Shown piece by piece: positions 37,957 through 51,439 of a stretch of 64,000 nt of DNA (positions are counted from its first letter, which is position 1; each line of letters starts with the position of its first letter). This stretch comes from Lacticaseibacillus mingshuiensis (GTDB lineage: Bacteria > Bacillota > Bacilli > Lactobacillales > Lactobacillaceae), in the NCBI RefSeq assembly GCF_016861785.1, contig NZ_BOLS01000007.1, positions 1 to 64,000 of the forward strand, read 5' to 3'. A program made the translations under genes and the position numbers. Under the pieces are notes generated by a model, which was not told where the DNA came from, made no database searches, and saw only the letters and a list, made by a program, of their open reading frames with translations.

Positions 37957-38622
37957 ATGCAGACCATGCTCGTTGTTGAAGATCATGAAGACATTCAGGC
38001 GCTGCTCAAACAGGTGCTCAGCGATCAGTATCAGGTGGCCCAGGCGTTTTCTGGGAGCGAGGCGCTGACTGTTTTTGACACCGCAAAGCCAGATCTGGTG
38101 TTGCTGGATCTGATGTTGCCGACGATCGATGGCGACAGCGTCCTCAAGTTGATTCGGCGCCACTCCCAAGTGCCGGTGATTGTGCTCACCGCGATCACGG
38201 ACAAGCAGCGGACGGTCGCCTTGTTGAAAAATGGGGCGAATGATTATCTGACCAAGCCGTTTGATATTGATGAATTGCTGGCCCGCATTCAGGTACAACT
38301 GCGAGCCACGGTGATCATCCCGGAAACGCATCTGTGCTTTGAGGCGATCGACATCGACACTGCGACGCACACGGTTCAGATCGCGGGGCACCCCCTGACC
38401 CTACCGAAAAAAGAGTTCGCGATGCTCAGCCTTCTAACCGCGCATCCGCACCAAGTGTACAACAAGCAGGCGCTTTATGAAGCCGTCTGGCACGAGCCGT
38501 TTCTCAATGCGGACAACACGTTGAACGTGCACCTCAGCAATCTCCGCACCAAGATCAATGACCTCGCCCCTGAGCCGCATTACATCGTGTCGCTCTGGGG
38601 CATCGGCGTGCGACTGGTGTGA
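37957..38622 (+). CDS. Response regulator, OmpR/PhoB family
   Basis: 221 aa. Receiver domain 1-120: acidic pair in VVEDHED, phospho-acceptor Asp51 in LVLLDLMLP, conserved Thr/Ala in VLTAI and Lys in LTKPFDIDELLARI. The C-terminal winged helix (130-221) has the VYNKQALYEAVW and LNVHLSNLRTKI elements of OmpR regulators. GGGGAGGAAA precedes ATG 37957; the longer frame back to 37759 runs antisense through the ATPase start. Its partner kinase lies at 39174, beyond a 550-base tandem repeat. It probably controls the divergent ABC exporter. Confidence 0.93.
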   Translation: MQTMLVVEDHEDIQALLKQVLSDQYQVAQAFSGSEALTVFDTAKPDLVLLDLMLPTIDGDSVLKLIRRHSQVPVIVLTAITDKQRTVALLKNGANDYLTKPFDIDELLARIQVQLRATVIIPETHLCFEAIDIDTATHTVQIAGHPLTLPKKEFAMLSLLTAHPHQVYNKQALYEAVWHEPFLNADNTLNVHLSNLRTKINDLAPEPHYIVSLWGIGVRLV

Positions 38623-38625
38623 AAA

Positions 38626-39150
38626 GGGTGCGAAGCGCGGCGTTTAGGTCTGAGCAGCTAGTGCGGCCTGGGCGGTTGATGGCGCACTTAGCCATCAGGC
38701 GACCAGGACGACTAGATGCCTCAGACCTGCCGCGCGGAGCCCAACTGAAAAAGGGTGCGAAGCGCGGCGTTTAGGTCTGAGCAGCTAGTGCGGCCTGGGC
38801 GGTTGATGGCGCACTTAGCCATCAGGCGACCAGGACGACTAGATGCCTCAGACCTGCCGCGCGGAGCCCAACTGAAAAAGGGTGCGAAGCGCGGCGTTTA
38901 GGTCTGAGCAGCTAGTGCGGCCTGGGCGGTTGATGGCGCACTTAGCCATCAGGCGACCAGGACGACTAGATGCCTCAGACCTGCCGCACGGAGCCCAACT
39001 GTAGGGTGCGCAGGCCCGCGGGATGGCAGGGCAGCTAACTTGGCTCGGGTGCTTGAGGCGCTCTTCGCCTCGAGTGCACGAGACAGCTAGATGTCCCTGA
39101 CATGCGGGCCGAAGCCCAACTGTAGGGTGCGCAGGCCCGCGGGATGGCAG
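38626..39150. repeat. Tandem 127-bp repeat array between response regulator and kinase
   Basis: Units begin GGGTGCG at 38626, 38753, 38880, 39004 and 39125. The first three are almost identical (127-base period); the fourth (39004-39124) is diverged and the fifth is a 26-base start. Each full unit folds on itself: GGTCTGAG (38647-38654 in unit 1) against CTCAGACC (38720-38727), AGCTAGT-like against ACTAGAT inside, and a perfect TGATGGC/GCCATCA hairpin at 38677-38697. It has no reading frame. A diverged reverse copy is at 25180-25331. Confidence 0.9.
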
Positions 39151-48849: not shown

Positions 48850-50225
48850 AAAATAGGGCGGTGGGCAGGGTGATCGGGTGGGATTACCACTCTGTTTCTG
48901 GTCCCGCTACTGGGAAGAAATGCCTGGACTGGCAACTGCGTGTCGCCGCTCGACTTTGCGCCAACAAGGCTACCGAGAATCGGGTGTGATGCCATCACAT
49001 TAGTTACTGATTGCGCAGAAGGAAATCAGAACAGTAGCCTTAATTTCCCGGGTTATGAAAGCAAAGTTGTGTGACGGCATCACACTAGTTAATGCTGCTC
49101 AGGGGGGGCGTGCGAACCCTGAGTCCAGTCGATGCGACTTGTGTGACCGGAGCGATCTCGGAGATCACCGATTTAGATTATCTACGCGGGCAGCGTGCAA
49201 TTTTCAGTCTCAGAGATCGCATGCCAGGACTGTGACCGTCACATTGGTGTCACCCCGTCACAAGACTTGATATTGCACGCCTGAGTTTGGCAATCTTAGC
49301 GGACCACGGGACCGCGGATGTTGAATTTCACGAGGAAAAGAAGCAAATTTGTGGACCATGAGTCCGGTGTGTGAAATGAGTGGCCCGTTGCAATCTCGGA
49401 GATTACCGATTTGGATTGTCTACGCGGGAATCACGCAATTTTCAGTCTCAGAGATCGCACGTCCGGACTGTGACCGCCACATTGGTGTCACCCCGTCACA
49501 AAACTTAATTCCGTACGCCTGAGTCTGGCAATCTTTGCGGACCCAGGGACTGCGGGTTTTTAGATTCACAGCAAAAGACCCACATATACAGACTCTGAGT
49601 CCAAACGATGCGACTTGTGTGCTACGGGGCAATCTCGGAGATCACCGATTTGGATTTTCTGCGCGGTAATCGCGAAATTTTCAGTCTCTGAGTTCGCACG
49701 CCCCGGACCGCGACATCCACATTGGTGTGACGCCATCACAAAACTTTATATCGAGTGTCTTGGACGTGTGCGGACTTCCCGGACCACGGGACCGCGGATG
49801 TTGAATTTCACGAGGAAAAAAAGCCAATTTGCGGACCATGAGTCCGGCCAATGTGAAATGAGTGACTCGTTGCGATCTCGGAAATCGTCGATTTGTTTTT
49901 TCTGGCAACATTTCTCAACACTTGCATTCTCGGAGATGTAAGCCCGTACCCCGGGTATACGAAAGTCGTTGGTTTCCCTCGAATGATGATAATCGGCATA
50001 CTCAGGGTACGCAAAATTCGATCTCCTGGGGGGGCGTGCGGAGAAAAGTAATGTAACCCCGTCACACCAGATTGAAGGGTACACCCAAGTCTTGACCACG
50101 ATTGGTATACTCCGGATATGCGGATATCGGCTTTTCCTCCAAAAGGTGTCCACCGGTATACTGAGAGTAGACGCCCAGAGAAGCCATCCCAAAGTATTGT
50201 GACACCATCACACTAGTTTAAAGGG
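48850..50225. repeat. Degenerate repeat array, left part
   Basis: Non-coding. ATCTCGGAGAT-type blocks recur at 49155, 49393, 49632 and 49875 (period 238-243), each followed by CGATTT and preceded by GAGTCC-type blocks; GGACC..GGGACCGCGGATGTTGAATTTCACGAGG recurs twice. From 49955 a shorter unit of about 147 bases with GTATAC blocks takes over. A TGTGA-N5-TCACA palindrome closes each unit (48985, 49070, 49248, 49486, 49726, 50052, 50198). Minus-strand open frames here are by-products of the repeats. No gene is called between 48760 and 50509. Confidence 0.8.
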
Positions 50226-50448
50226 GGCGGACCTGGGCAAAGAATTCGAGGATTCCTATTGAGACGATGTCGGCATTTGCTGATCGTATGTTACAGTGAC
50301 AACCGACGATAGGCTTAATTCAATTGTCTTTTACTCCTCTAGCGGGCGTATCCGCAGACAAATTGACCTAGATCATAAGCATCTCGGACAGATTCCACAT
50401 GTACATGAAGGCGATGTAACAAATCATCAGACACAATTTCGGGTTCAC

Positions 50449-50477
50449 ATGACAAGGTCAGACAGGATGTATATTAA
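50449..50477 (+). promoter_or_regulatory. Promoter candidate of the orphan gene
   Basis: ATGACA at 50449-50454, 17-base spacer, TATTAA at 50472-50477, with a second AT-rich TATATT overlapping it; 33 bases before the ATG at 50510. Confidence 0.5.
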
Positions 50478-50509
50478 TAAAATCGAACGAATATGGAAGG
50501 AGTACAAGA

Positions 50510-50824
50510 ATGAATAGCGGGAAGCAAGTGCGAGACTGGGTCGATGATCTATCCAAGGATTTGTTTTTGGAACTTCTGAATGAGAACCAGGTCTTTTACT
50601 TCACGTTCAATCACCACGATTACCTCATCGAAATGTATAACGAGGGAATGCTAATTGCAGATCCATATCCATACTATAATGATGGTGGGTATCCAGGCCA
50701 CAAGCAGTTTCAATATCCGCTGAGCTTTACAGCCAAAACAGTGGACGAGTTCCTGCGACTGCCATTCCTCGACGGACAAACAATTCTTAGCCAATGGGAC
50801 AATATCCGCTTTTGGAACTACTAA
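50510..50824 (+). CDS. Orphan AT-rich protein embedded in the repeat locus
   Basis: I do not recognise this 104-aa protein. It is soluble, acidic, without signal peptide or membrane segment and very rich in aromatic residues (FYFTFNHHDY, YPYYNDGGYPGH); it ends NIRFWNY. The GC content is clearly lower than the chromosome around it, which suggests transfer. GGAAGGAG before the ATG is a strong ribosome site and the frame has normal codon structure, so it is probably expressed. The repeat array lies on both sides, with palindromes at 50198 and 51299 nearest. Small immunity-like or phage-derived proteins have this look, but that is only an impression. Confidence 0.7.
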   Translation: MNSGKQVRDWVDDLSKDLFLELLNENQVFYFTFNHHDYLIEMYNEGMLIADPYPYYNDGGYPGHKQFQYPLSFTAKTVDEFLRLPFLDGQTILSQWDNIRFWNY

Positions 50825-51194
50825 CGATTCCAGTATCAACTGATTTCCTAAATTCCGACTCTCGGGAAATTCCGCATACTCCTTATAAAGGAAGACTATA
50901 GTTTCAGGGATCGCGAAGAACATGCTTTTTCTTGGGCTACGTAAGACGTGGCCTTTTTCTTTTACTCGCTCCACTGAGCAGGGAAATCCTTTGTGGAGTC
51001 ACCACATCAATTTAGGAAGACACCCTGTCGACAATTTGCCCCAGAAGAATCAAATTGGCAGTTTGAGAAATCCCGGAATCATGATCGTATATTTGCCTCA
51101 TATACTCCAGAAAGGCAAAACCCTCGGTCCAGTGGTTCGCGTTTTTTGTAATGGAATCTCGTCAGTCCGCACGGCCCCGGGCGGGCAACGATTC

Positions 51195-51314
51195 ATGTAC
51201 TCTTGGTATGCGGAGATTATTATTTTCCATCAAAAGATGTCAATCTGCGTACCCAGGATATGTTGGTTTTGATTTTCCGAGATCCGGGAGCAAAGTAATG
51301 TGACGGCATCACAC
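51195..51314. repeat. Degenerate repeat array, right part
   Basis: A further unit like those at 49955-50225: GTACTC..GGTATGCGGA, TTTTCCATCAAAAGATGTCAATCTG, GCGTACCCAGGATATG, then AAAGTAATGTGACGGCATCACACC with the palindrome at 51299-51313. The remainder of 50825-51439 holds weaker fragments (CATATACTCC near 51098) and no gene. Confidence 0.65.
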
Positions 51315-51439
51315 CAATTTCGTAAGAAGAATGAGGGTTGATGATCAGGCAAGGACGCATCGGGTTATGCCGTATCCAAGATGGCTTGTTTTGGCCCTGA
51401 TATAAAGCCACTTCTCGAAGACACATCATCTGCTTATAC

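Follow-up and report, generated by a model that had tools for sequence, protein, structure and literature searches.

Intergenic arrays of helically phased dyads, putative protein-binding sites, in Lacticaseibacillus mingshuiensis and L. yichunensis

What kind of element is the degenerate tandem array that lies near 49-50 kb of the window (by which we mean the whole 64-kb stretch of Lacticaseibacillus mingshuiensis DNA analysed here, part of a 142-kb contig in a 2.76-Mb genome)? A first-pass annotation had recorded four units of about 240 bp without a coding frame, and had suggested either an array of multiple protein sites or a large structured RNA. The array is real: Tandem Repeats Finder (TRF) reports 49155-49904 as a tandem repeat with a period of 238 bp (3.1 copies, 75% matches, score 747), and a repeat search places the ordered companion blocks at 49132, 49370, 49609 and 49852, with spacings of 238, 239 and 243 bp. 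The fourth unit consists of its first ~63 bp only (49875-49937), and the ~240-bp unit is itself composite: the dyads within it follow one another at intervals of about 52 and 42 bp. The blocks first noticed are confirmed, but the repeat modules reach further, over 48985-50213 and a separate patch at 51195-51313. The open reading frames listed over the array are short and overlapping, in several frames and on both strands; the absence of a coding frame thus stands, as does the statement that the array does not fit a CRISPR, an rRNA spacer or a known insertion sequence.

From the alignment of 51 full units and from module scans, we distinguished four dyad types of ~15 bp each: P (consensus TGTGAYGnCATCACA), A (GATCTCnGAGATC), G/g (consensus of G, CGGACC/TnnGAGTCCG) and E (GCRTACYCnGGGTAYGC). 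Their centres are 52±2 or 42±2 bp apart, and the layout of the 238-bp unit is A-52-A-43-P-52-G-52-g-39. The A, G and E dyads have in common a CTCnGAG-like centre and an A/T tract on the inner side, ~11-14 bp off centre; judging from the consensus and the individual sequences, A/T tracts probably lie close to the P dyads too. Dyads of the same type form inverted pairs 52 bp apart (A-A, E-E and G-g). The motif ATCTCnGAGAT, with one mismatch allowed, occurs nine times in 64 kb (1.4 expected), seven times within the array, and all eight occurrences of the P palindrome TGTGAYGSCRTCACA in the 64-kb window (two mismatches allowed; 0.66 expected) fall inside 48985-51313. Since these modules are put together differently in other arrays of the genome, with periods of about 140, 195 and 250 bp, the ~240-bp period is a higher-order repeat. 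Runs of a single dyad type with a 52-bp step are found only outside the window array, e.g., seven weak P sites 51-53 bp apart in L033. The features of the locus are listed below, with strand where one is assigned and the method of detection in brackets.

48985-50213: main array, in which 25 dyads are detected when up to 3 mismatches are allowed (dyad scan, TRF, nhmmer)
48985-48999: P dyad TGTGATGCCATCACA, left edge of the array, retained in L. yichunensis (motif scan, pairwise BLASTN)
49070-49084: P dyad TGTGACGGCATCACA, retained in L. yichunensis (motif scan, pairwise BLASTN)
49113-49127: g dyad CGAACCCTGAGTCCA, site of the probable L. yichunensis deletion junction (dyad scan, pairwise BLASTN)
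49118-51352: segment missing from the orthologous spacer of L. yichunensis (pairwise BLASTN)
49155-49392, plus strand: higher-order unit 1, A-A-P-G-g, centres 49160, 49212, 49255, 49307 and 49359 (nhmmer, dyad scan)
49393-49631, plus strand: higher-order unit 2, A-A-P-G/g-g, centres 49398, 49450, 49493, 49545 and 49596 (nhmmer, dyad scan)
49632-49874, plus strand: higher-order unit 3, A-A-P-G-g, centres 49637, 49689, 49733, 49787 and 49839 (nhmmer, dyad scan)
49875-49937, plus strand: partial unit 4, A pair alone, centres 49880 and 49932 (nhmmer, dyad scan)
49944-50012: E pair CCGTACCCCGGGTATAC and GCATACTCAGGGTACGC, 52 bp apart (dyad scan)
50052-50066: P dyad TGTAACCCCGTCACA (motif scan)
50105-50121: E dyad GTATACTCCGGATATGC (dyad scan)
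50198-50212: P dyad TGTGACACCATCACA, right edge of the main array (motif scan)
50296-50824, plus strand: mobile-element remnant with a truncated ORF, 50296-50517 (PHROG 9479), and an intact 104-aa ORF, 50510-50824
51195-51313: second patch, E pair (centres 51203 and 51255) and P dyad at 51299-51313 (dyad scan, motif scan)

The remnant at 50296-50824 is low in GC; its first ORF is truncated N-terminally, while the 104-aa ORF has a good ribosome-binding site, and the homologues of the two are adjacent genes in the congener G018 (L080). The product of the 104-aa ORF was considered as an array-binding protein and rejected: L. yichunensis does not have it, and in the congener its homologue adjoins a gene of a phage protein family (PHROG 9479).

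The array is a member of a genome-wide family. BLASTN of the region against its own genome yielded 41 matches spread over at least a dozen loci, and dense arrays occur at 13 loci, besides one small cluster, with a total of about 27.5 kb or 1% of the genome; the count is based on DNA and pattern searches, and 13 may be an undercount. Among 40 relatives, a single one matched, Lacticaseibacillus yichunensis 33-1 (G021), which carries several arrays; 23 other congeners, searched in the same way at the DNA level, had none. The true array content of L. yichunensis must exceed what is seen, since many of its contigs end in arrays. Exact P palindromes gave 111 strand-hits in L. mingshuiensis, 29 in L. 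yichunensis and 0-2 in each of 28 other congeners, where the single sites fall within a kinase gene or a spacer resembling a terminator and were taken as chance occurrences. Beyond L. yichunensis, a scan of the contig collection returned two chance matches, in Providencia; the plasmid and phage collections held no match to the array, and downstream of thiN in other congeners, where an array might be present with a different sequence, no 52-bp lag was seen. Among the congeners searched, the arrays are confined to these two species. The window also contains, at 38622-39001, a 127-bp element in three tandem copies 96-100% identical that forms a very stable hairpin (z -7.3), with 46 BLASTN matches in this genome, 61 in L. 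yichunensis and a weak short match in one of 20 other congeners: it represents a further clade-specific family of dispersed repeats, distinct in type from the dyad arrays.

All arrays are intergenic, and the flanking housekeeping genes are unrelated in function: the sites include thiN/rpmB, fbpA/degV, upstream of metG, beside infC and after dnaG (names read from translations), with the flanking genes in tandem, convergent or, once, divergent orientation. None of the arrays has a linked regulator gene. One array (L060:6915-7538) is interrupted by an acetyltransferase-like gene, so arrays can flank a gene on both sides. On the complete 2.99-Mb chromosome of the congener G042 (dnaA at 1.07 kb), the array-adjacent genes are at 2.61-2.66, 0.16, 0.63 and 1.42-1.74 Mb, mostly near the origin and the terminus with long empty stretches between, a distribution that is suggestive only, as the test is post hoc, the contigs hold several arrays each and independent loci are few.

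A motif-free search for palindromes (6 of 7 pairs, one-base centre) found 218 in the arrays versus 39 in shuffles; for perfect and near-perfect palindromes, the lag was 51-53 bp in 47 cases, with 30 at a lag of 52 bp alone as against 0.1 in shuffled sequence, and further peaks occurred at 93-95 and 103-106 bp. Motif-based distances between adjacent dyads cluster at 40-44 and 50-54 bp. Dyads of like type are spaced at exactly 52 bp in 62 of 65 cases for AA, 22 of 24 for EE and 16 of 16 for gg, but these are homologous copies and not independent, and the spacing argument therefore rests on unlike pairs. For unlike neighbours of <70% identity, the best period among those scanned from 8.5 to 13 bp was 10.4-10.5 bp (R 0.5; n = 184 distances of 30-112 bp), which is the helical repeat of DNA. 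At distances of 30-62 bp, 210 of 240 unlike pairs fall in 40-44 or 50-54 bp (73 expected if uniform) and nine in 45-49 bp. Kinship between units could explain part of the phasing, and strict phasing is violated by P-P runs at 36-37 and 40-41 bp in L033, where one stretch (L033:8722-9036) consists of P dyads only, in steps of 36-41 bp off the 42/52-bp rule. Over the arrays, the four dyad types recur ~42 and ~52 bp apart, i.e., at 4 and 5 helical turns, unlike neighbours included.

The dyads are also conserved over the linkers. In four locus pairs from the two species, dyads differ at 47 of 849 sites (5.5%) and linkers at 299 of 2695 (11.1%; p 8e-7); the dyads were defined by consensus match in L. 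mingshuiensis only, a procedure that is not expected to bias their divergence downwards. In a tree of units, those of L040/L050 are one-to-one orthologues, those of L041/L051 are homogenised, and the units of the window nest with those of the thiN array; the arrays thus predate the species split.

The L. yichunensis locus orthologous to the window array is a 0.6-kb spacer without 49118-51352, in which both neighbour genes are kept. Its left edge is retained (two P dyads and the start of the g dyad), and GGAC is common at the junction, which argues that the segment was probably lost by deletion in L. yichunensis and not inserted here. Any single array copy is thus dispensable, since L. yichunensis has lost the window array entirely. 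Decayed coding sequence, the outcome that the first-pass annotation had named as evidence against an array, was not seen: the spacer of the relative is short and contains remnant dyads.

We give an about even chance to a reading in which all 13 dense intergenic arrays, the window array included, consist of protein-binding dyads. Multiple protein sites, one of the first-pass suggestions, in a partition- or nucleoid-like array are favoured by the helical phasing, the conservation of the dyads and the lack of covariation detailed below. A dimeric DNA-binding protein, or a few paralogues of differing specificity, would occupy successive dyads; the bound proteins would share one face of the helix and touch their neighbours, and the outcome would be a nucleoprotein filament or scaffold of 1-3 kb that organises or anchors the chromosome. 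Local duplication and deletion would lengthen and shorten the arrays, with selection holding dyad sequence and helical phase. The evidence for protein-bound DNA is indirect, and the chromosome-organising role is our inference.

The arrays could instead be neutral or selfish satellite DNA that serves no purpose and has multiplied through slippage, unequal exchange and gene conversion, with the 52-bp step originating in the copying machinery. We consider this unlikely, if worth serious thought: the arrays are limited to one clade, their sizes differ between the two species to the point that the window array is gone in L. yichunensis, and units are homogenised within L041 and L051, but the dyads diverge at half the rate of the linkers, and the 10.5-bp phase is kept between unlike neighbours in spite of variable linkers. 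Moreover, some units (L040/L050) are orthologous one to one across the species, so turnover is too slow to explain the regularity.

Should the arrays be transcribed, with dyads as hairpins, they might constitute a structured non-coding RNA or a small-RNA sponge. Some dyads are hairpin-like, and an RNA role keeps a small probability because the 52-nt repeats of Bacillus coagulans are transcribed (PMC8625621) and present in RNA-seq (PMC8625621, PMC8161180). The pairing data oppose it. At variable arm positions, paired combinations were below independence at all tested and significantly so at five of nine (e.g., E d6, 12 paired versus 33.6, p 3e-9; g d2, 17 versus 35.7, p 8e-8). The two dyads of a 52-bp pair match each other less than shuffled partners do, a deficit that signifies the absence of positive covariation only and is partly due to the mixed strand orientation of loci. 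Mismatches in dyads are G·T in 264 and A·C in 253 instances, about equal, without a wobble strand bias. The RNA fold of three units is at shuffle level (z -1.1 and -0.8 on the two strands, versus -7.3 for the 127-bp element with the same tool), with a covariation term of only -0.75 kcal/mol, and promoter-like sites in the arrays are at chance frequency. In Rfam, no array match was found to E<1, and at gathering and relaxed thresholds the sole match was a tRNA elsewhere. Conserved pairing with compensatory change, as in structured RNA families, was thus not found; arm base-pairing is not conserved, and the large structured RNA of the first-pass annotation is improbable. The 10.4-10.5-bp phase, dyad conservation, absent arm covariation, equal G·T and A·C mismatches, shuffle-level fold and silent Rfam search together point to protein-bound DNA rather than structured RNA.

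A cis-regulatory or insulating element for the flanking genes, such as a boundary of transcription units or supercoiling domains, has a similarly low likelihood: every array is intergenic, and TGTGA-N-TCACA resembles operator dyads, but the neighbours are functionally unrelated and variously oriented, thiN and rpmB are present without an array in other congeners, and both neighbours persist in L. yichunensis where the window array is missing. Mobile repeats, whether clusters of transposon ends or REP/BIME-like elements that a RAYT/Y1 transposase mobilises, would agree with palindromic modules in mosaics at dispersed loci, but are very improbable given that the three Y1 transposases here equal the number in array-less congeners and lie at none of the arrays, that no target duplications were seen, and that array positions are common to both species.

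How, then, do the putative protein-bound arrays compare with known systems? Their repeats are degenerate with linkers homologous between units, and no cas gene is among the neighbours listed, unlike in CRISPR; unlike plasmid iterons or centromeres, they are on contigs that carry housekeeping genes, without a plasmid match. The P dyad resembles the matS site, GTGACRNYGTCAC. Sites of matS/MatP, SlmA and RacA are short odd- or even-centred dyads, scattered singly and bound by one protein each, whereas here four dyads form dense phased arrays. REP/BIME elements of enterobacteria and Pseudomonas are likewise intergenic mosaics of palindromic units in alternating orientation, and BIMEs bind proteins; the arrays here are longer, have 42/52-bp steps, and show neither hairpin covariation nor a linked RAYT transposase (no Y1_Tnp at any array).

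The closest likeness is to the constant-size tandem repeats of 52 or 20-21 nt in Firmicutes, including Bacillus and Paenibacillus, of variable, species-specific sequence and unexplained function (Subirana & Messeguer 2021, PMC8161180), for which a protein polymer on the nucleoid and small RNAs have both been proposed (PMC8161180). Here, too, the 51-53-bp step dominates motif-free and motif-based spacing; the repeats are non-coding and species- or clade-specific, with several sequence families per genome; short signals occur with their reverse (the inverted A-A, E-E and G-g pairs); and array length varies among relatives. The published sizes of 20-21, 40-41 and 51-53 match steps of 20-21, 40-45 and 50-55 bp in our arrays. 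Thirteen of 20 published consensus repeats tested hold one significant dyad per repeat, centres being mostly odd, which implies that both groups follow a plan with a single dyad every 52 bp. The published ones form plain 52-nt tandems in which 5-19 bases usually separate the two arms of a dyad, whereas the arrays here mix four compact dyads (one-base centre) at 42/52 steps under a higher-order period of ~240 bp; the period that TRF detects in the window array is 238 bp. Our best reading is that they belong to, or are closely allied with, the Firmicutes repeats, as a variant with mixed dyads, 42/52 steps and a higher-order period.

More tentatively, the 52-bp satellites of Firmicutes may generally be scaffolds for a protein that recognises a single dyad at each step and forms a polymer on one side of the helix; the dyad sequence would be free to change with the protein while the steps stay whole helical turns (2, 4 or 5), and this clade would use several paralogous specificities per array. 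On sequence evidence, a protein scaffold and small RNA are separated here, as unlike dyads share the whole-turn step and dyads are conserved but pairing is not. The dyads provide exact probe sequences for finding the candidate binding protein. If confirmed, the arrays would represent a novel class of element for organising bacterial chromosomes, with a satellite-like mode of evolution, and they offer a point from which the unexplained 52-bp satellites of Firmicutes can be put to the test.
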